Positions 36,412 through 44,694 of a DNA stretch of 64,000 bases are shown piece after piece. The translations under genes were made by a program, and so were the position numbers. The notes beneath the pieces are model-generated. The model worked only from the letters and a program-made list of their open reading frames with translations, did no database searches and was not told the DNA's origin. Every line of letters begins with the position of its first letter. Position 1 is the first letter of the stretch. Source of the stretch: an uncultured Fluviicola sp. (GTDB lineage Bacteria; Bacteroidota; Bacteroidia; Flavobacteriales_D; Crocinitomicaceae); NCBI RefSeq assembly GCF_902168135.1, contig NZ_CABHOL010000026.1:1-64000 (forward strand). Reading direction: 5' to 3'.

Positions 36412-36449
36412 AAAATGTAGGGGCGTAAAATTTTGCACCCCTACATTTT
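36412..36449 (-). terminator. Near-perfect palindrome (GTAGGGGCG family) after the second gldM
   Basis: Left arm from 36412 and right arm to 36449 are complementary except for two positions near the centre; the core GTAGGGG/CCCCTAC is intact. It follows the gldM-like stop by 8 bp and precedes the ABC-F start, so it probably ends the gldM' message. It belongs to the same family as 31247-31286 and 57219-57246. Confidence 0.75.
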
Positions 36450-36457
36450 TTTTGAAA

Positions 36458-38194
36458 TTAAAGCACAAACGACGCTATTTTTTTTCGCACTAACTGGTCA
36501 GGCCCCACGTAATCCATTTTAACGTTTACAATCGTTCCCGGTCTGCCCTGCCTCAATAATTTAGTTGCTTCATCAGAAATTCGATTTCCTTTTCCTTTTT
36601 CCGGTCTTGGCGCTGTGTTCAAACTCAACTCCCAATTTAAAATAGTGAATTTTGCATCCAGCGGACTATTTTTATATCGTGAGAACAAATTCTTTTCTGC
36701 CGGCGAAATTTTCCCTCCTTCTTCCACAGCTCCAAAGAAAAACTCCGGATTTGGGAGCGTCATAATTCGGAAAGGGAAAGACCCCAGTTTTACACGCTTT
36801 TTTGACACGGAATTTACACCATAAATATCAATATTTGCAGTTCTTCCGCTGGTAGTAACTTTTGCGATGTGCTGGCTTCCGGATTTAGATAATGAAACAC
36901 CATTCCCGATTAAGGACGTTTGATCGTAACCGGACGCAACCCCTTCTATCAGGTTATCATATCCTTTGTACAGGACATTCATCTTTGGCAGCGAAACTGT
37001 CCCCTGCGGTCTCATGATCTTAATGGTATGTGACCAATTCTCCGTCTTCGTCTGTCCGGATTTGTTCTTGATGGAAACCGTTCCGCTCAAAGTCATTTCT
37101 GTTCCTGAGCCCACTTTGGTTTTGATCAGGCCTTTTCCCTGTGTTCCACGGAAAGAATTTCCATTATAGGTAACAGTTGGCTGATTATCGGAATCAAAGG
37201 CCGCCATCATCACGTTCAACTCAACTTCGTCTCCTGCATTGGCTATTTCAGGTCCGTAAACCAATCCAACGATGCTGTTAAATGAATATTCTCCTACGGA
37301 GACTTTCGATTTTAAATGTGATAATGCCAATGAACGGGCAGAAAGTATATCTTGCTGCATCGAAGAGAGGGAAGCTAAAGCAGCCACAAGCGGAGCATGA
37401 TCAAATGTTTGCCCGATCCAGTGAACTTCTTCAATATCATTTTGAGTAACTCGTTCGGGTTTGGTCAGATTCATGTAAATGGTTGAAATAATTTCTTCAT
37501 CGTCCCGCAAATTCGCTTTGGATGATCGGATCATTTGTTCCACCTGTTTTTTCAAATCCTGGTTGCTTTTATAGGAATTAATCGCTTTAGGATTGATGGA
37601 ATACGCTTTTTTTCCTTCCCGGTACGTTCCGATTGTTTGGATCAATTTCGACCGGAATCCGTTGTAATCATTCCAGATCTTCTTTCCCTTTCCGGTAGGA
37701 TTCCTGATGTCATCACCAATCAGAATGTACATGGGGATATCGTACTCGTCCTGGGCCTCTACGGCTTTCAGATTCATCCGGATCGGCTTACAGCCTTCGC
37801 CCTTTTCCCAAATAATCGTATTGTTATCCTGCGGTTTGATGGTTGTAACTTCCTCCCCCGATTCTCTCAACAATTCCATTTTCACCTGGTCAATTTCTTG
37901 TATCAGGTTTGCGGAGAGTTGATCAACCTGTTTCATCTGCTTCATTACTTTTTTCAATTTCCGAAGCTTTTCCGCGTTCTCCTTTCCGTCAGTCGAACTA
38001 ATTTCACTGGACACATCAGCAATAAATTCCGAGCCGCGGTCTACCTGCATGCCGTTCGATTTCTGTGTATTTTCTTCAATTGCAACGAAAGCATCCAAAA
38101 TTGTTTTGGATACATTCAATGCCAAAAGTGCGGTCAGTACCAGGTACATCATTCCGATCATCTTTTGTCTTGGGGTTTCTTTTCCTCCTGCCAT
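36458..38194 (-). CDS. Second GldM-like T9SS inner-membrane protein (GldM')
   Basis: A 578-residue paralogue of the GldM encoded at 40464-42203. The first 30 residues are nearly identical, including MAGGKETPRQKMIGMMYLV, the transmembrane helix that packs with GldL. The periplasmic part keeps the same plan (helical D1, then beta domains: LVYGPEIANAGDEVELNVM, KNKSGQTKTENWSHTIKIM, GTVSLPKMNVLYKGYDNLIEG). Differences are spread through the length, so it is an old duplication. It sits after gldN' with a strong terminator between, and has its own terminator downstream. It could form an alternative trans-envelope stalk of the secretion motor; inference. Confidence 0.9.
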   Translation of the reverse strand: MAGGKETPRQKMIGMMYLVLTALLALNVSKTILDAFVAIEENTQKSNGMQVDRGSEFIADVSSEISSTDGKENAEKLRKLKKVMKQMKQVDQLSANLIQEIDQVKMELLRESGEEVTTIKPQDNNTIIWEKGEGCKPIRMNLKAVEAQDEYDIPMYILIGDDIRNPTGKGKKIWNDYNGFRSKLIQTIGTYREGKKAYSINPKAINSYKSNQDLKKQVEQMIRSSKANLRDDEEIISTIYMNLTKPERVTQNDIEEVHWIGQTFDHAPLVAALASLSSMQQDILSARSLALSHLKSKVSVGEYSFNSIVGLVYGPEIANAGDEVELNVMMAAFDSDNQPTVTYNGNSFRGTQGKGLIKTKVGSGTEMTLSGTVSIKNKSGQTKTENWSHTIKIMRPQGTVSLPKMNVLYKGYDNLIEGVASGYDQTSLIGNGVSLSKSGSQHIAKVTTSGRTANIDIYGVNSVSKKRVKLGSFPFRIMTLPNPEFFFGAVEEGGKISPAEKNLFSRYKNSPLDAKFTILNWELSLNTAPRPEKGKGNRISDEATKLLRQGRPGTIVNVKMDYVGPDQLVRKKIASFVL

Positions 38195-38259
38195 GACTTA
38201 AATTTTAAGGTTATACCAATCGAATGTCATTTTTCCGATTAGTAACAGGGAGGCAAAAA

Positions 38260-38290
38260 AATCCCGATGTCGGAAGTGATCATCGGGATT
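38260..38290 (-). terminator. Strong intrinsic terminator between gldN' and gldM'
   Basis: AATCCCGATG (38260-38269) and CATCGGGATT (38281-38290) form a perfect 10-bp stem with an 11-base loop; on the minus strand a run of seven T follows. It lies after the gldN' stop and before the gldM' start. Confidence 0.9.
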
Positions 38291-38301
38291 GAAATCTTCA
38301 T

Positions 38302-39300
38302 TTAGAAATTCCAGACATCCTGTTCAAAAGTCCGGATACCTTCAATGATATCTGCAGACTCCTGTAATGCATCCACTCCCGTCCGATAGCTGTCAATAGA
38401 TCTGTCGAAAACATTACTTTCCTTGTAAACGGTACTTGAAAATCGCCGTTTCCAGAACAAATCATCGAAACTCATCCATTGGGCGTCGTTCTTTTCATTA
38501 TACACGTAATAATTGGTCAATAGATATCTCAAATGCGGGAAGTAGACCCAGAATTTGGTTTCCAAACCGGCAATCATTTTTTGTCCGTTCGGGGCTGTTT
38601 CTTCTTTCAGTACCACCGGAGCAATTCCCATGATGCGTACATCCATCACCGAGCGTTCCTTATCGAAAAACCAATCTTCCTTGAGCAGGTATTTAACGAT
38701 GTGCTCGGAATCGATCCAGAAAGTATCTCTGTCCGCGTAAACAAATTCTTCTACACCATTTACCCATCGGGTAGAATCTCTCCCATCCCAGGTAGATAAA
38801 ATAACATCTGATTCAGGTCCAAGTTTACCTAAGTAATAAAACACTTCATTCCTGAATACAGAATCATTGCAGTAATTCCCTCCGGGTCCGGGGGCAATCG
38901 GGTATTTGAACTGGTCTCCGTCCACAATATCGAATTGATAGGGATTGTAAGACGAGAAGATCTTTAATTCACCGTTCATAATGTGATGCCTCATAATCGT
39001 CCATAAAGACCAGCAATTCGTGTTTCTTACATACTGCCCCGATGGAGTATGATGATCAAGCGGATAATAAAGCGGATGATTGATTTTCTGTCTCAGATCG
39101 ATTTCCCTCCAGACACGTTTACTCCACACAACATCGGCTTCACGCACGTATTCATAAGGAACCGTTTTCTTGGTAAGAATGTGTTCTTTGACATAGGGAT
39201 AATCCAGGGTTGGCGTCATCGAAATGAAATCCGTGGATTCACATTGGGCAGTTACATCATAAGCTGCCGCAAGAAATAAGATTAAGGTAACTCTCTTCAT
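38302..39300 (-). CDS. Second GldN-like T9SS protein (GldN', GldO-like)
   Basis: A 332-residue paralogue of the GldN at 39424-40434, with a signal peptide ending near TAQ (residue 19). Shared blocks include READVVWSKRVWREIDLR, HTPSGQYVRNT, WSLWTIMRHHIMNG, FSSYNPYQFD and the Met-rich C-terminal half. F. johnsoniae also has a GldN paralogue, GldO, next to gldN; this gene is the positional counterpart. ATG 39300 (MKRVTLILFLAAAYDVTAQ) is preferred to the upstream in-frame ATG at 39327 because it starts the signal peptide properly. A terminator between gldN and this gene suggests separate expression. Confidence 0.9.
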   Translation of the reverse strand: MKRVTLILFLAAAYDVTAQCESTDFISMTPTLDYPYVKEHILTKKTVPYEYVREADVVWSKRVWREIDLRQKINHPLYYPLDHHTPSGQYVRNTNCWSLWTIMRHHIMNGELKIFSSYNPYQFDIVDGDQFKYPIAPGPGGNYCNDSVFRNEVFYYLGKLGPESDVILSTWDGRDSTRWVNGVEEFVYADRDTFWIDSEHIVKYLLKEDWFFDKERSVMDVRIMGIAPVVLKEETAPNGQKMIAGLETKFWVYFPHLRYLLTNYYVYNEKNDAQWMSFDDLFWKRRFSSTVYKESNVFDRSIDSYRTGVDALQESADIIEGIRTFEQDVWNF

Positions 39301-39370
39301 GGCTTTGGGTTTTTCAGATAGCGCCAAAAACAGCCATTGGTTACACTTGTAAGTCAGGTAGTTATAAACA

Positions 39371-39406
39371 AAAACCCCGACGATTGCTTGGCAATGTCGG
39401 GGTTTT
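39371..39406. terminator. Strong terminator between gldN and gldN'
   Basis: AAAACCCCGAC (39371-39381) and GTCGGGGTTTT (39396-39406) pair perfectly, with inner ATTGC/GCAAT pairs and one bulged base. T-runs follow on both strands. It lies directly after the gldN stop and should end the gldK-L-M-N message. Confidence 0.9.
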
Positions 39407-39423
39407 CTATTTTTTTGATTCGA

Positions 39424-40434
39424 TTAGAAATTCCAAACGTCGTGTTCGAAGTTTCTAATTTCTTCTGTTATCTTCTCAGATTCCATCAATGCATCTACAC
39501 CTGTTTTGTAGCTGTCGATCTCGCGATCGAAAACATTACTTTCACGGTAGATGGTACTTGTAAATCGACGTTGCCAGAACAAATCGTCAAAACTTTGCCA
39601 TTGAGCGTCGTTCTTTTCGTTGTACACAAAGTAATTTGCAAGAATGTAACGACAGTGAGGGAAATACAACCAGAATTTCTCATCCATTCCGGTAATTGTT
39701 TTTCCACCTGTTGGAGATTCTTCCTCTCTGTAAGTTACAGGAGCAATTCCCAAAATACGCACATCCAATACAGATCTTTCTTTGTCAAAGAACCAATCTT
39801 CTTTGATACGGTACTGTACAATGTTCTCAGAATCGATCCACATGGTATCAGCAGGAGGATATTTGAAAGTAATTGTTCCGTCAGGAAGTGTAATTTCAAT
39901 CGGATCCCCGAACTCATTTGTCAATGGAACATCACTTTGAGCACCTAATTTTCCTAAATAATAGAAGACCTTATCGCGGAATAAAGAATCGGTATAATAA
40001 TTCTTACCTGCTTCAGGTACTACCGGATATTTGAATTGATCTCCATCCAACATATCAAACTGATATGGGTTATACGGTGAAAACACTTTCAAATCTCCGT
40101 TGATGATATGGTGACGCATGATTGTCCACAAAGACCAACGGCTCGTATTTCTTACATACTGTCCGGATGGAGTGTGTTTATCAAACGGCAAATAAATCGG
40201 ATGATTCATTTTCTCACGCATATCGATCATACGCCAAACACGATGACTCCAGACTACATCAGCTTCACGAACAAACTCATAAGGGATCATTCTTTTGGTA
40301 GGTATATGTTCTGTCATATACACCCCGTCGATTACATCCGCCTGAGGAACATTCACTGGTCCACCATTGATCTCCTGCGCGTTCGTTAATAACGAACCGG
40401 CAAACAAGGTACTTAATAGAACTAAACGTTTCAT
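39424..40434 (-). CDS. gldN: T9SS/gliding protein GldN
   Basis: A 336-residue secreted periplasmic protein (PorN homologue) that binds the GldK ring and the GldM stalk in the type IX secretion system. Signal peptide MKRLVLLSTLFAGSLLTNAQ (cleavage near residue 20). Conserved blocks: PYEFVREADVVWSHRVWR, HTPSGQYVRNT, WSLWTIMRHHIING, KVFSPYNPYQFD, DEKFWLYFPHCRYILANYF, DDLFWQRRFTSTIYRESN. ATG 40434 starts the signal peptide; an in-frame ATG at 40464 overlaps the gldM stop. It follows gldM by 29 bp in the gldK-L-M-N operon and ends just before a strong terminator. Confidence 0.95.
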   Translation of the reverse strand: MKRLVLLSTLFAGSLLTNAQEINGGPVNVPQADVIDGVYMTEHIPTKRMIPYEFVREADVVWSHRVWRMIDMREKMNHPIYLPFDKHTPSGQYVRNTSRWSLWTIMRHHIINGDLKVFSPYNPYQFDMLDGDQFKYPVVPEAGKNYYTDSLFRDKVFYYLGKLGAQSDVPLTNEFGDPIEITLPDGTITFKYPPADTMWIDSENIVQYRIKEDWFFDKERSVLDVRILGIAPVTYREEESPTGGKTITGMDEKFWLYFPHCRYILANYFVYNEKNDAQWQSFDDLFWQRRFTSTIYRESNVFDREIDSYKTGVDALMESEKITEEIRNFEHDVWNF

Positions 40435-40463
40435 GATTGACACTCTATTATTTATTTTATTCA

Positions 40464-42203
40464 TTAAATGGTAAATACACCACTTTTCTTACGTAGGATT
40501 CCATCCGGCCCCTTAACTTGCGTCATGAAGCTGATAGTTGATCCTGGTTTTGCTTGTTTCATTAAGCTGATACCGTCCGCGTTCAAAGTATTTCCAGATC
40601 CTTTAGCAGGACGAGGAGCACCCGCAACGTTCAGTTCCCATGTTTGAACAGAGAATTCAGCTTTCAACGGACTATCTGCATAACGTGCAAACAAGCGAGT
40701 TTCTGCTTTAGAAGCTTTACCACCATCTTCAACTGCTCCGAAGAACAATGTTGGAGGCGGAAGGTTCATTACACGGAAAGTGAATGTTCCCAAAGAAACT
40801 GTTTTATTTGTTACAGAGTTTTTACCGGAGATTGAGATTGTAGCTGTTCTTCCGGCACCACTCACACGTCCGATATACTGATTTCCGGATTTAGACAAAG
40901 TAACTCCGTTACCGTTCAAGATTGTCTGATCGTAACCAGAAGCAACTCCTTCAACAATATTGTTATATCCTTTGTATAATACATTCAATTCAGGAAGAGA
41001 AACCGTTCCTTGTGGTTTCATAATCTTGATTGTATGCGTCCAGTTACCTGGTTTCTTAACTCCTGATTTGTTCTTAATGGAAACAGTTCCACTCAATACC
41101 ATTTCAGCACCTCCGGAAACTTTAGTTTTAATAGTACCCTGACCACCAGCGATCTCAATTGTACCGCTATTTGAAGTTACTTCCGGTTGGTTATCCGAGT
41201 CAAATGCTGCCATCATTACTTTCAATTCAACCTCATCACCTGTGTTAGCGATCACCGGACCGTATGCCAAAGGCATAATTTTGTTGAACGAGAATTCACC
41301 TGTAGAAACTTTAGATTTCAAGTGTGCAAGTGCATAAGCACGTGCAGCCAATACATCCTGCTGCATAGAAGTCAAAGATGCAACAGCAGCTACCAATGGA
41401 GAATGGTCAAATGTAGCACCAATCCAGTGGATACCTTCCATGTCGTGAACTTTTACTCGCTCCGGTTTTGTCAGGTTAATATACAAGTCACTTAAAGCCT
41501 GGTCATCCTCCATGTGATTCACATTGCTTTTCTTAACCATATCAGTTACCTGCTTTACCAAATCAGCATTGCTTTTGTAGGTATTGATTGCTTTCGGAGT
41601 GATAGTATACGTCTTTCCTCCTTCTTTGTAAGAACCTACTGTACTTACAAGGTCTGCACGGAACTTATTAAAATCAGCCCACAACTGCTTTCCTTTACCG
41701 GTTGGAGTTTTGATATCTTCTCCTACGATCTCATGCATTGGGATATCGTACTGATCTTTCGCCTGAACAGCCATCAAGTTCATACGGATAGGCTTACAAA
41801 CAGAAGCTTTTTCCCAAAGAATGGTATTCTCATCATCCTTTTTGTATTCTTTTACAGCTTCACCGGACTTCTCTAAGATTTCCAATTTAATTGCATCGAT
41901 GCTTTTAAGCAGTTTGTCAGACATCTTATTAACTTCTTCCATCTGACCTAAAATCTTCTGCAATTTTTCTCTCTTAGCAGCATTTTCGGCATTCTTAGGA
42001 GTTGTTGTCAACTCTTCATCAACATCCGATTTAAATTTATCACCTCTTTCAATTTGGGCGATATTTGCTTTTTGTATGTTTTCTTCAATTGCGACAAAAG
42101 CATCGAGAATCTGCTTTGATACGTTCAACGCAAGTAGCGCTGTCAATACCAAATACATCATACCGATCATCTTCTGTCTTGGGGTTTCTTTTCCACCTGC
42201 CAT
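40464..42203 (-). CDS. gldM: T9SS/gliding motor protein GldM
   Basis: A 579-residue inner-membrane protein with one N-terminal helix (MIGMMYLVLTALLALNVS) that pairs with GldL to form the proton-driven motor, and a long periplasmic stalk reaching GldK/N at the outer membrane. Periplasmic blocks: MPLAYGPVIANTGDEVEL, KNKSGVKKPGNWTHTIKIM, GTVSLPELNVLYKGYNNIVEG, GTFTFRVMNLPPPTLFFG. Length is close to F. johnsoniae GldM (about 510-520) but some 60 residues longer. It lies between gldL (63-bp gap) and gldN (29-bp gap). The close paralogue at 36458 is probably not in the same operon. Confidence 0.96.
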   Translation of the reverse strand: MAGGKETPRQKMIGMMYLVLTALLALNVSKQILDAFVAIEENIQKANIAQIERGDKFKSDVDEELTTTPKNAENAAKREKLQKILGQMEEVNKMSDKLLKSIDAIKLEILEKSGEAVKEYKKDDENTILWEKASVCKPIRMNLMAVQAKDQYDIPMHEIVGEDIKTPTGKGKQLWADFNKFRADLVSTVGSYKEGGKTYTITPKAINTYKSNADLVKQVTDMVKKSNVNHMEDDQALSDLYINLTKPERVKVHDMEGIHWIGATFDHSPLVAAVASLTSMQQDVLAARAYALAHLKSKVSTGEFSFNKIMPLAYGPVIANTGDEVELKVMMAAFDSDNQPEVTSNSGTIEIAGGQGTIKTKVSGGAEMVLSGTVSIKNKSGVKKPGNWTHTIKIMKPQGTVSLPELNVLYKGYNNIVEGVASGYDQTILNGNGVTLSKSGNQYIGRVSGAGRTATISISGKNSVTNKTVSLGTFTFRVMNLPPPTLFFGAVEDGGKASKAETRLFARYADSPLKAEFSVQTWELNVAGAPRPAKGSGNTLNADGISLMKQAKPGSTISFMTQVKGPDGILRKKSGVFTI

Positions 42204-42266: not shown

Positions 42267-43091
42267 TTAGTCTCTGGAGATTGTCATAGCTTTCAACATG
42301 TTGCCGTAAACTGCGTTCAAATCAGTTAAGTTTTTAGACAACATTGCCATATTCTCTTTGTAACGTCTTGTATCTTCAGCTGAATCAGACAAGTTTTTCA
42401 TCATTTCAGTTACCTGACCCTGGAATTTCTCAGTAGCTTCCAGGTGAGCGGAAGAACCTTTCAATTGTAATTCGTATACGTTGTTCAAAGCCGCCAAGTT
42501 TTTAGAAACTTTTTGCATTTGCTCACCGAATGATTCACCTTCCTGAGTATTTGAAGTCATACCTGAAATAGATACAGATGCTCTTTCGTATGCTTCAGAC
42601 AAAGAAGATACTTTATCAGATGCCGCTTGTAATGAAGAAACATAAGAGTCAGTTGCCGCTGCTGCAGATGTTACACCTTTCAATTGAGAAGCATTTTCAC
42701 CTAACTGACGCATTCCGTCTCCTAAACGCTCTAACAATTGACCGTCAATTTTAGCTTCCTCCAACATTTTATCCAAGTGCTCAGTAATTCCAGTTCCCCC
42801 GGAATTTCTTCCTCCTCTTCCACCTGCTGCAGGCAATGCATCGTGATCTAAATCATCACTGTGTGCGAAAGCTAATTCAGGATAAACAAGCTCCCAGTTT
42901 GGATCTTCATGAATCGGTTCGAATGCCGAGAAGATGAAGATAATAGCTTCTGTAGACAGACCGATTACAAGCATCGGACCAGCTCCAGGCCAGTGCATAA
43001 TTTTAAATAAGGCTCCAACGATTACGACTGCCGCACCGAAACCGTATAATTTCGCCATAAACTTTTTCCATCCTTTACTTCCTGGTTTCAT
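42267..43091 (-). CDS. gldL: T9SS/gliding motor protein GldL
   Basis: A 274-residue inner-membrane protein with two transmembrane helices: FGAAVVIVGALFKIMHWPG (about residues 13-31) and MLVIGLSTEAIIFIFSAFEP (about 36-55). It has the typical conserved KIMHWPG segment and a Glu in the second helix that belongs to the proton path of the GldL-GldM motor (established for this family). The rest is a cytoplasmic, mostly helical domain with coiled-coil-like heptads. Order gldK-gldL-gldM-gldN is the normal one. Only one gldL is present although gldM and gldN are duplicated. Confidence 0.96.
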   Translation of the reverse strand: MKPGSKGWKKFMAKLYGFGAAVVIVGALFKIMHWPGAGPMLVIGLSTEAIIFIFSAFEPIHEDPNWELVYPELAFAHSDDLDHDALPAAGGRGGRNSGGTGITEHLDKMLEEAKIDGQLLERLGDGMRQLGENASQLKGVTSAAAATDSYVSSLQAASDKVSSLSEAYERASVSISGMTSNTQEGESFGEQMQKVSKNLAALNNVYELQLKGSSAHLEATEKFQGQVTEMMKNLSDSAEDTRRYKENMAMLSKNLTDLNAVYGNMLKAMTISRD

Positions 43092-43149: not shown

Positions 43150-44694
43150 TTAGCGAAGTTGGATATCGCTACGAATTTCCTCGCCACCCTCTTTAGAGAA
43201 TTCTCGTCCACCGCGACCTAAGTGTGTTGCCACATTTCGGAATCCGACGTACGATTTGGCAGTATCCTGATACTCGTATGTACGAGTTGATGTTTGCAAA
43301 TAATAACCTACATCTTTCCAGGAACCACCGCGGATAACTTTACGTTTCATTGCAGGCGGATCCCAGTCCATTGCGTCATATCTGTACTCAGTGTTTAGGT
43401 CATGAGAGAATTCGTACATCGCTTCGTCATAAGCTGTCTCACACCATTCTGACACGTTACCTGCCATACAGTAAAGACCCCATCCGTTCGGGTTGTAAGA
43501 ATATGCTTTCACTGTGTGGAAACCACCGTCTTCAAAATAACGACCTCTCATCGGTTTAAAGTTCCCAAGGAAACATCCACTCTGGTTACGGATATACGGA
43601 CCTCCCCATGGATATGGTGAGTTGTTCAAATCTCCACGAGCAGCTCTTTCCCACTCAGCTTCAGTCGGCAAACGGAAATCATTCACGAACAAATCTCCCA
43701 TCGCCGAAAGCCAGTTGTTCAACAACTGCGTTCTCCAGATTGAAAATGCTTTAGCCTGTACCCAAGTAATCCCGATAACCGGATAGTTATCGTAAGCCGG
43801 ATGCCAGAAGTACATATTTGTCATCGGATCGTGGAACGAGTAAGTAAAGTCACGAACCCAAACCAATGTATCCGGATAAACGTTAATTTCTTCATCGATG
43901 ATGAATCGCTGACGGTTCTCGTGACCACGAAGACCTGTACTTTGTCCTTTTTTGTTGAAGTAGCTCAAATCCTTATCCAAACCTTGAGGCTCTTCTGTAA
44001 AAGGATGCGGAGGCGTATTCAAATCACGGTGTTCTGGTGCGATCTCATTACCATCTTTATCAACTCCATTGTGGACAATTTCGATGCGTCCTCTTTGAGC
44101 TGCCTCTCTTAAGTCGATCCAATAGTACTTGAAGTTCAATTTTCTGGTATCAAATTCACGACGCTTGTAGAAACGCTCCGGCTGAGGATAATACATGTCC
44201 GCCAGCAAAGGCATCAAATCCGGATCATCATAAGCGAACTTACGATCCCAATTCAACGCAAATTGCGCACGATTCACATCACGGTCAGAGGGTTCGAATT
44301 CAACCATCTCCAAAGCGCCTTCATCGAAGTACATATCTTTGTAGTTGATGTAGCGGGATGCCTCTTCATCTTCTTCCAATCCGGAATAGATACGTTCACG
44401 CGCCATTGAATCTCTTACCCAATCCACGAATTGACGATACTCGTTATTCGTGATCTCAGTTTGATCAATATAAAATGCCTGAACAGACACAGTCTTTGCA
44501 CGAGTTTGGTGCAAGAAAGGTACATCCTGATCGTTTTCCCCCATAATGTAGGAACCCGAAGGAACATACACCATCCCAAGAGGAATCTCAGGCTGGTAAA
44601 CTCTACGACCTAATGTCCCTGTCAAGTGGCCACTACGTGAGCTACAAGAGGCAATAAAGGCCCCAATTAAACCGATAAACAACAGTTTTTTCAT
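43150..44694 (-). CDS. gldK: T9SS/gliding lipoprotein GldK
   Basis: A 514-residue outer-membrane lipoprotein (PorK homologue). The lipobox is IASC, with Cys17 the likely acylation site. The body is a formylglycine-generating-enzyme-like (SUMF1) domain: PSGSYIMGENDQDVPFLHQ, FYIDQTEITNNEYRQFVDW, FRLPTEAEWERAARG, NPYPWGG-like SPYPWGGPY, WGLYCMAGNVSEWCETAY, RKVIRGGSWKD. The SUMF fold is structural here, not known to be catalytic. It forms the periplasmic ring with GldN. It is the first gene of gldKLMN and follows the PorP/SprF-like gene by about 114 bp. Confidence 0.96.
   Translation of the reverse strand: MKKLLFIGLIGAFIASCSSRSGHLTGTLGRRVYQPEIPLGMVYVPSGSYIMGENDQDVPFLHQTRAKTVSVQAFYIDQTEITNNEYRQFVDWVRDSMARERIYSGLEEDEEASRYINYKDMYFDEGALEMVEFEPSDRDVNRAQFALNWDRKFAYDDPDLMPLLADMYYPQPERFYKRREFDTRKLNFKYYWIDLREAAQRGRIEIVHNGVDKDGNEIAPEHRDLNTPPHPFTEEPQGLDKDLSYFNKKGQSTGLRGHENRQRFIIDEEINVYPDTLVWVRDFTYSFHDPMTNMYFWHPAYDNYPVIGITWVQAKAFSIWRTQLLNNWLSAMGDLFVNDFRLPTEAEWERAARGDLNNSPYPWGGPYIRNQSGCFLGNFKPMRGRYFEDGGFHTVKAYSYNPNGWGLYCMAGNVSEWCETAYDEAMYEFSHDLNTEYRYDAMDWDPPAMKRKVIRGGSWKDVGYYLQTSTRTYEYQDTAKSYVGFRNVATHLGRGGREFSKEGGEEIRSDIQLR

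Follow-up and report, generated by a model that had tools for sequence, protein, structure and literature searches.

The window analysed here, the first 64,000 nucleotides of contig NZ_CABHOL010000026.1 (assembly GCF_902168135.1) from an uncultured Fluviicola sp., carries the gldKLMN locus of the type IX secretion system (T9SS) followed by a second gldN (gldN') and a second, full-length gldM (gldM'), and our comparison with related loci points to a single GldL motor ring shared by two kinds of stalk. The genes run on the minus strand in the order gldK-gldL-gldM-gldN-gldN'-gldM', and every frame is intact. GldM, GldM', GldN and GldN' all score above the NCBIfam equivalog cut-offs; these two GldMs and two GldNs, together with one GldL, are all the above-cut-off matches in the whole of the window's own genome (G000), and gldK is single within the locus, to which its search was confined. 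These scores uphold the copy numbers given in the initial annotation (gldM and gldN twice, gldK and gldL once), as the coordinates of the open reading frames (ORFs) and recurrence in relatives uphold its M-N-N'-M' order on a single strand. Since this order recurs across genera and in a second family, it goes beyond chance; it is a real, conserved variant of a known secretion machine. Below, gldM and gldN are referred to as slot 1, and gldM' and gldN' as slot 2.

Exactly one GldL above the cut-off was found in each of the 40 genomes searched, 36 of which have two full-length GldMs, so that a single motor would seem to work with several stalks, and M' would use either the one GldL ring or no known ring. 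We lean, with modest confidence, towards M' and N' being accessory parts of this one motor, a stalk and a ring/track subunit of weak or conditional expression, with separate origins.

The second stalk protein and its place behind a hairpin

GldM' has a motor helix and four periplasmic domains (D1 to D4), with Pfam GldM_1st to GldM_4th all above their cut-offs; for the slot-1 GldM this holds for three of the four, GldM_3rd scoring 24.4 where 25.2 is required. The AlphaFold model of GldM' (mean predicted local distance difference test score, pLDDT, 84.9; predicted template modelling score, pTM, 0.52) found PorM (7cmg) and GldM (6ey4) as its best solved matches in Foldseek, with GldLM (6ys8, 7sax) lower down; the whole-chain template modelling scores by query length (at most 0.35) are low, as can occur in long multi-domain chains. 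The two paralogues differ at a single position within residues 1-38, their identity is 56% in D1, 69% in D2, 68% in D3 and 46% in D4, and their overall protein divergence is about 39%, in line with the near-identical motor helix and divergent periplasmic stalk noticed at the outset. Over the first 40 codons, silent sites have diverged by 0.66 (0.78 gene-wide) and protein-changing sites by 0.04 (0.26 gene-wide). As the silent sites of the helix codons have diverged, the near-identity of the motor helices reflects selection rather than recent copying, and recent gene conversion is ruled out by a silent divergence so near the gene-wide value. An alignment of 31 copies drawn from the two slots shows 21 invariant positions among the first 28 GldM residues (3-4, 6, 9-12, 14-22, 24-28), one of them R9, which we take to be important for the motor.

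The ratio of nonsynonymous to synonymous divergence (dN/dS, Nei-Gojobori) of M' is 0.024, 0.047, 0.057 and 0.055 against genomes G012, G002, G006 and G001, with corresponding values of 0.046, 0.049, 0.080 and 0.105 for M; the comparison with G003, where slot 2 holds a different type, gives 0.160. Judged by these ratios, M' is under purifying selection. A pseudogene or random duplicate is ruled out by the low dN/dS and by recurrence over genera, and the possibility raised by the initial annotation that M' and N' are lineage-random pseudogenes falls away because M' is intact and selected. The case for a specially diverged D4 tip is weakened by a comparison at similar overall distance, the slot-1 GldMs of G000 and G003 being 47% identical in D4 and the window's paralogues 46%.

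Elsewhere in G000 (contig C43, outside the window; L005:1423-2043), a gene encodes a 206-aa protein with a signal-peptide-like start that resembles GldM D3-D4, lacks the motor helix and matches GldM_3rd with 20.8 bits (cut-off 25.2); possibly it is a free 'tip' that competes for GldN. Partial GldM matches below the cut-off, mostly to the C-terminal half, also occur in other members of the genus and in some genomes of the phylum sample described below.

The second slot differs from the first in codon adaptation. With 28 genes of the G000 ribosomal-protein cluster as the reference for the codon adaptation index (CAI), the median of 45 ORFs of the window is 0.52, a value exceeded by all four genes of the K-L-M-N block and reached by neither N' nor M' (Table 1). 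Slot 1 had the higher CAI in 30 of 30 GldM pairs and 27 of 27 GldN pairs, and silent divergence between species is correspondingly higher for M' and N'. In G013, where the slot-1 GldM is a mosaic (see below), that copy has a CAI of 0.70 and the slot-2 GldM one of 0.56, indicating that the drop tracks the slot and not the type of protein.

A hairpin with a T-rich tail lies 3' of gldN in 103 of 106 distinct loci; the same type was found 3' of gldK, gldL and gldM in 0/109, 2/115 and 4/106 distinct loci, respectively, and in 16 of 318 gldN 3' segments shuffled in two-base blocks. By these comparisons, gldN' and gldM' appear to lie outside the KLMN operon, behind a conserved terminator-like hairpin. 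From this hairpin and the drop in codon adaptation we infer that M' and N' are weakly or conditionally expressed; for the same two reasons the M/N and M'/N' sets are unlikely to be equal. In two genomes, G002 and G009, an opposite-strand gene separates gldN from gldN' (L035:10032-11540 and L042:9015-10514); it encodes a class V aminotransferase in G009, and the G002 gene, broken into two frames, resembles it on visual inspection.

Several points weigh against the picture of a weakly expressed second slot on a single ring. Hairpins 3' of gldN' and gldM' are not general (13/35 and 19/35 distinct loci), and any of the hairpins may be read through. The hairpin counts themselves rest on a purpose-made scan; a simpler terminator scan gave 13 sites with 9.4 expected, and the minus-strand gldN hairpin is not among them. 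The CAI weights of one genome were applied to all genomes. The promoter consensus of the phylum is absent upstream of N' (0/27) and M' (0/29), a weak test given that only 2 of 48 gldK upstream regions were positive, and matches of the sigma-70 type in the window are no more frequent than in shuffled sequence (28 vs 25.2). Silent sites of M' and N' are close to saturation, which makes dN/dS rough, and for M' it was not computable against G009 and G013. Several of the 40 genomes (e.g. G017, G038, G069, but not G000) also hold partial GldL-like matches of 20-32 bits, below the cut-off, and in these genomes a very diverged second ring is possible.

In the wider minus-strand order, a porP/sprF-like gene stands before gldK, itself preceded by topA and a gene for a 385-aa protein, and gldM' is followed by genes for an ABC-F-like ATPase and a DUF2797-like protein and by clpP (topA, ABC-F, DUF2797 and clpP are names that we presume from the sequences). 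The nearest named matches of the window's GldL are 98, 97 and 91% identical (Flavobacteriales UBA7666 and, twice, Fluviicola sp.), and those of other Fluviicola 70-86%. Fluviicola belongs to Crocinitomicaceae in the NCBI taxonomy, and the family sampled below is presumably the same. The mechanical ORF of gldN' begins at a TTG (39327); Table 1 gives the coordinates from the ATG. An Rfam scan of the window returned no match.

Table 1. Coordinates of the gld genes and adjoining hairpins, counted from the first nucleotide of the window
Feature	Description	Positions	Strand	Profile score or folding energy	CAI
gldK	outer-membrane ring/track lipoprotein	43150..44694	-	TIGR03525 563 bits (cut-off 350)	0.66
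gldL	motor ring	42267..43091	-	TIGR03513 250.7 bits (cut-off 68.3)	0.75
gldM	slot-1 stalk, 579 aa	40464..42203	-	TIGR03517 210.4 bits (cut-off 180)	0.71
gldN	slot-1 ring/track subunit, 346 aa	39424..40464	-	TIGR03523 177.4 bits (cut-off 85.9)	0.65
hairpin 3' of gldN	terminator-like, T-rich tail	39371..39406	-	-21.7 kcal/mol	
gldN'	332 aa from ATG, signal-peptide-like start	38302..39300	-	TIGR03523 180.5 bits (cut-off 85.9)	0.48
hairpin 3' of gldN'	terminator-like	38260..38290	-	-15.4 kcal/mol	
gldM'	slot-2 stalk, full length, 578 aa	36458..38194	-	TIGR03517 208.8 bits (cut-off 180)	0.49
hairpin 3' of gldM'	terminator-like, upstream of the ABC-F-like ATPase ATG (36399)	36416..36445	-	-15.6 kcal/mol	

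Distribution and origin of the second copies

Of 14 genomes of the genus (the window's own included), nine have two intact GldMs, two have the second copy in broken frames and three have one GldM; the second GldN follows the second GldM exactly, being found in those 11 genomes and missing from those three. The broken second copies belong to G004 and G005, whose assemblies are 83-84% complete and in both of which the ABC gene is also split, as are gldK, gldN and the DUF2797 gene in G005; the breaks are therefore, in our view, sequence errors. The family sample comprised 120 genomes, and in 41 of them at least four stretches match GldM, a proxy for two copies that is flawed at least for G058, where a single gldM is split in two. 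A firmer count comes from 49 distinct family-like loci with a GldL at least 66% identical to the window's and the ABC-F gene as far-end anchor (loci with an identical GldL protein were counted once, which drops, e.g., G012). They read M-N in 20 cases, M-N-M' in 7, M-N-N' in 1, M-N-N'-M' in 16 and have split frames in 5, three of these having a broken N' beside an intact M' (some of the breaks could be assembly error); two of the 20 M-N loci (L161, L172) have M' on another contig. A further 30 family-like loci without the anchor stand outside this count, and three of them are M-N-N'-M'.

The M-N-N'-M' arrangement, present in nine of the 14 genus members (the window's included), recurs in other genera of the family, and G499, of another family, reads K-L-M-N-N'-M'. 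In a further group of Flavobacteriales, M' lies beyond the ABC-F gene (L122, L125, L126, L129, L130, L135; L127 is cut off), and at the two loci of another family inspected for this, L187 and L190, the second GldM has no recognisable K, L or N beside it. A second full-length GldM occurs in other families of a 245-genome order sample as well, among the matches listed (e.g. G418, G499, G523, G530). Of 296 genomes sampled across the phylum, each at least 95% complete, 74 carry a GldM above the cut-off, and G000 alone has two full-length copies.

Genomes with an extra GldM are larger (median 4.2 Mb, n=35, vs 3.1 Mb, n=63; 98 genomes), genome size being a weak stand-in for T9SS cargo load; against any reading of this difference as a cargo effect, it is confounded by genus, and its direction is reversed in one of the five genera that hold both states. 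GldJ scores above the cut-off in 12 of the 14 genus members, including all three without M' and N', a distribution that gives no support to a simple link of M' and N' with gliding. No full gldJ was found in G000, nor any match to a fragment of the gldJ neighbour from G012 that was taken as porU (a search with no positive control), and the absence of gldJ is probably an assembly gap.

A phylogeny of both families, the check suggested by the initial annotation, yielded second copies that do not form single clades and M' and N' that do not behave as a joint block. In the GldN tree of 102 rows (from which the long row L070_N2 was left out), sequences switch slot label 17 times, of which starred branches force at least 16, and N' mostly groups beside the N of its own lineage; for a 57-row set, a single clade of 17 N' rows was rejected with p-AU 1.3e-38 (L070_N2 being in the tree and outside the tested group). 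The label changes 13 times (at least 11 forced) in the GldM tree of 134 rows, and 23 slot-2 GldMs as one clade were rejected in a 62-row set (p-AU 0.0003). The trees are quick ones with long branches, so that single nodes are uncertain. As judged from these trees and from the loci in which each occurs without the other, gldN' and gldM' appear to have separate, repeated origins. With separate trees, and with M' and N' found apart, a reversed block duplication is not needed to account for the gene order; the simplest history would be a gldM' behind the operon and separate, repeated tandem copies of gldN, homogenisation of N and N' by gene conversion being possible in place of repeated duplication. 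Nor do the data agree with a duplicated KLMN block or a second complete T9SS motor, as none of the 40 genomes has a second GldL above the cut-off, M' and N' are found apart and their trees are separate.

The divergence of the M' tip showed no significant dependence on N' (p 0.11 for D4 identity and 0.52 for D4 minus D1; 24 pairs with N' and 16 without), and the idea that N' drives it is not supported. In this test, six pairs whose M and M' lie on different stretches (G021, G022, G053, G079, G110, G115) were scored as lacking N' from those stretches alone, G053 and G079 having two GldN matches genome-wide; three further pairs (L059, L067, L084) have a broken N'. The test did not include six pairs from the outside group.

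The slot-1 GldMs of G004, G008 and G013 look mosaic: their D1 part is nearest to that of G045, a member of another genus, and their tip to the slot-1 tips of their own genus. With parents chosen after inspection of identity windows, the maximum chi-square break falls at window-M' residue 382, 382 and 303-309, respectively (chi-square 73 to 124), and none of 2000 permutations reached as high a value. Permutations as high numbered 313/2000 and 79/2000 in the slot-1 controls G007 and G003 (the latter not a clean null), 1/2000 in a slot-2 case, G006, and 268 and 323 of 2000 in two slot-2 controls. The K, L and N beside the G013 mosaic are 95, 96 and 88% identical to the window's. These patterns look like an exchanged shaft with the native tip retained. 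An origin of the G004 slot-1 shaft from its own slot 2 is unlikely, the identity being 54.8% over 241 aa; the G045 copy reaches 58-96% in 45-residue windows. The PorM tip is reported to be sufficient for interaction with PorN (PMC5790014). A further-reaching proposal, which we offer tentatively and regard as doubtful, is that one GldL drives two stalk types per cell, that the stalk is modular (helix, D1 and part or most of D2 exchanged between lineages, the D3-D4 tip staying with the slot) and that the second slot, at low expression, provides an alternative drive shaft or a mixed one, a kind of gearbox.

The second GldN also shows distinctive changes. In the window lineage (8 rows), GldN' has lost a cysteine that is kept by 54 of 55 slot-1 GldNs and has gained three (20, 96, 144). 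These changes are of interest given that, according to PMC12635249, partners attach to GldK by disulfide. Four consecutive gldN-like genes occur in a Bacteroidetes metagenome assembly (L153:12512-16357). Between gldN' and gldM', two genomes of group g18 carry a gene (L065:10631-13084 and L066:7897-10353) for a protein of about 808 aa, presumably FG-GAP-like, with a T9SS type A sorting tail that scores above the cut-off of 23 in one (32.8 bits) and below it in the other (20.5 bits). At the same position in G035 (L068:8996-9843), two small exported-looking proteins of about 140 aa are encoded, the one scanned having no Pfam match.

Possible roles of the second slot

On the reading that we favour, gldKLMN, strongly expressed, would form the principal block for motor and ring/track in the T9SS/gliding machine and would end at the terminator after gldN, with gldN' and gldM' as accessory paralogues of weak or conditional expression in a 'second slot' between this terminator and the ABC-F-like gene. 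Because only one GldL was found, M' would have to join the pentamer of this GldL, so that a minority of the motors would be of an alternative kind (GldL5M'2 or mixed GldL5MM'). The ring or track of GldK and GldN would receive N' as a variant subunit. The gldN' gene would derive from repeated tandem duplication or homogenisation of gldN, and gldM' from separate duplications or replacements downstream. The motors have been proposed to push on GldN subunits, with GldK, GldN and GldJ as the gliding track and PorKN as the ring, and the PorM tip is predicted to sit between PorN copies (PMC12635249). On that view, the machine would have in M' an additional type of arm and in N' an altered surface for contact. 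We infer both the assembly of M' with GldL and a retuning of the motor by the second slot for particular conditions or a large cargo load; at least 230 potential T9SS effectors are reported for F. taffensis (PMC10202324).

The initial annotation had proposed two interchangeable stalk/ring sets on one GldL, and only its one-motor half, with more than one stalk, gains from the single GldL in 40 of 40 genomes. That M' and N' make up one dedicated set, exchanged with M and N on this GldL according to cargo or between gliding and secretion, we consider unlikely. N' and M' do adjoin in 16 of the 49 anchored loci, both extras share the same pattern over the genus, and in the two g18 genomes a sorting-tail gene (one tail above and one below the cut-off) lies between them; against a matched set speak M' without an N' frame (7/49) or with a broken N' (3/49), N' without M' (1/49, and G018, which has N' and a single GldM), the separate origins and the lack of significant coupling between M' tip and N', and the three genus members without either extra still keep GldJ. 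As M' and N' are not inseparable, accessory and independently expressed paralogues are favoured over two matched sets. The observation as such stands; its paired-set reading is weakened and the reading of one motor with more stalks strengthened.

We regard plain redundancy or dosage, with M' and N' backing up M and N as GldO partly does for GldN in Flavobacterium johnsoniae, as a still poorer account. The full domain sets and the repeated origin of gldN' beside gldN would suit it, as would GldO, which adjoins GldN and is described as partially redundant with it in PMC9127263; on the other hand, M' and N' look weakly expressed and would thus add little dose, and the protein divergence of about 39% under selection, with the altered N' cysteines, points to a changed function. 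Improbable above all is an asymmetric, heterodimeric axle with one M and one M' per GldL pentamer. Motor helices that differ at 1 of 38 residues would permit it, M and M' are more alike in D2-D3, which are strand-swapped in the GldM dimer (PMC5790014), than in D1 and D4, and the Myxococcus AglR with two MotB-like partners, AglQ and AglS, offers a possible precedent, whatever the dimer type (PMC9389320). The lower codon adaptation of M' is at odds with a 1:1 partner, and in 20 of the 49 anchored loci M is the only GldM gene of the locus, M' being on another contig in at least two of these cases.

Compared with the canonical gldKLMN loci of F. johnsoniae and P. gingivalis, the window agrees in the four families at equivalog level, in the order K-L-M-N and in the domain plan of GldM, and differs by having a further gldN and gldM on the far side of a terminator-like hairpin. 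Its doubled gldN resembles the GldN/GldO pair of F. johnsoniae, whose genes likewise adjoin (PMC9127263). Most N' sequences cluster with the GldN of the lineage they come from (the F. johnsoniae GldO being outside our tree), so the two duplications are probably not the same. GldO, to our knowledge, comes without a neighbouring second GldM. According to PMC5790014, F. johnsoniae has other extra orthologues of porM, which may be comparable to M'. In the phylum sample, genomes with strong GldM scores (G176, G345, G376, G406) have additional matches in frames of just 218-258 aa that cover the C-terminal part and fall below the cut-off, unlike the full-length M'. No paper on a second GldM in Crocinitomicaceae was found among the matches listed from the open-access library searched; the likeliest sources are outside it, so priority is not established.

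Flagellar motors swap stators on one rotor, and the AglR-AglQ-AglS system of the 5:2 motor family (PMC9389320) likewise has alternative partners that share one rotary machine. The exchanged part in these cases belongs to the ion-driven stator, whereas in GldLM the ring stays constant and the stalk varies; homology of GldLM to the flagellar and Agl motors is unproven. How GldLM transfers force to the ring or track, and whether the same motors drive secretion and gliding, are in our judgement unsettled questions. Genomes with one GldL and two diverged stalks, together with the natural shaft/tip chimaeras, provide material on which part of the stalk sets the choice of partner, and the same genomes bear on whether one ion-driven ring can turn different drive shafts.

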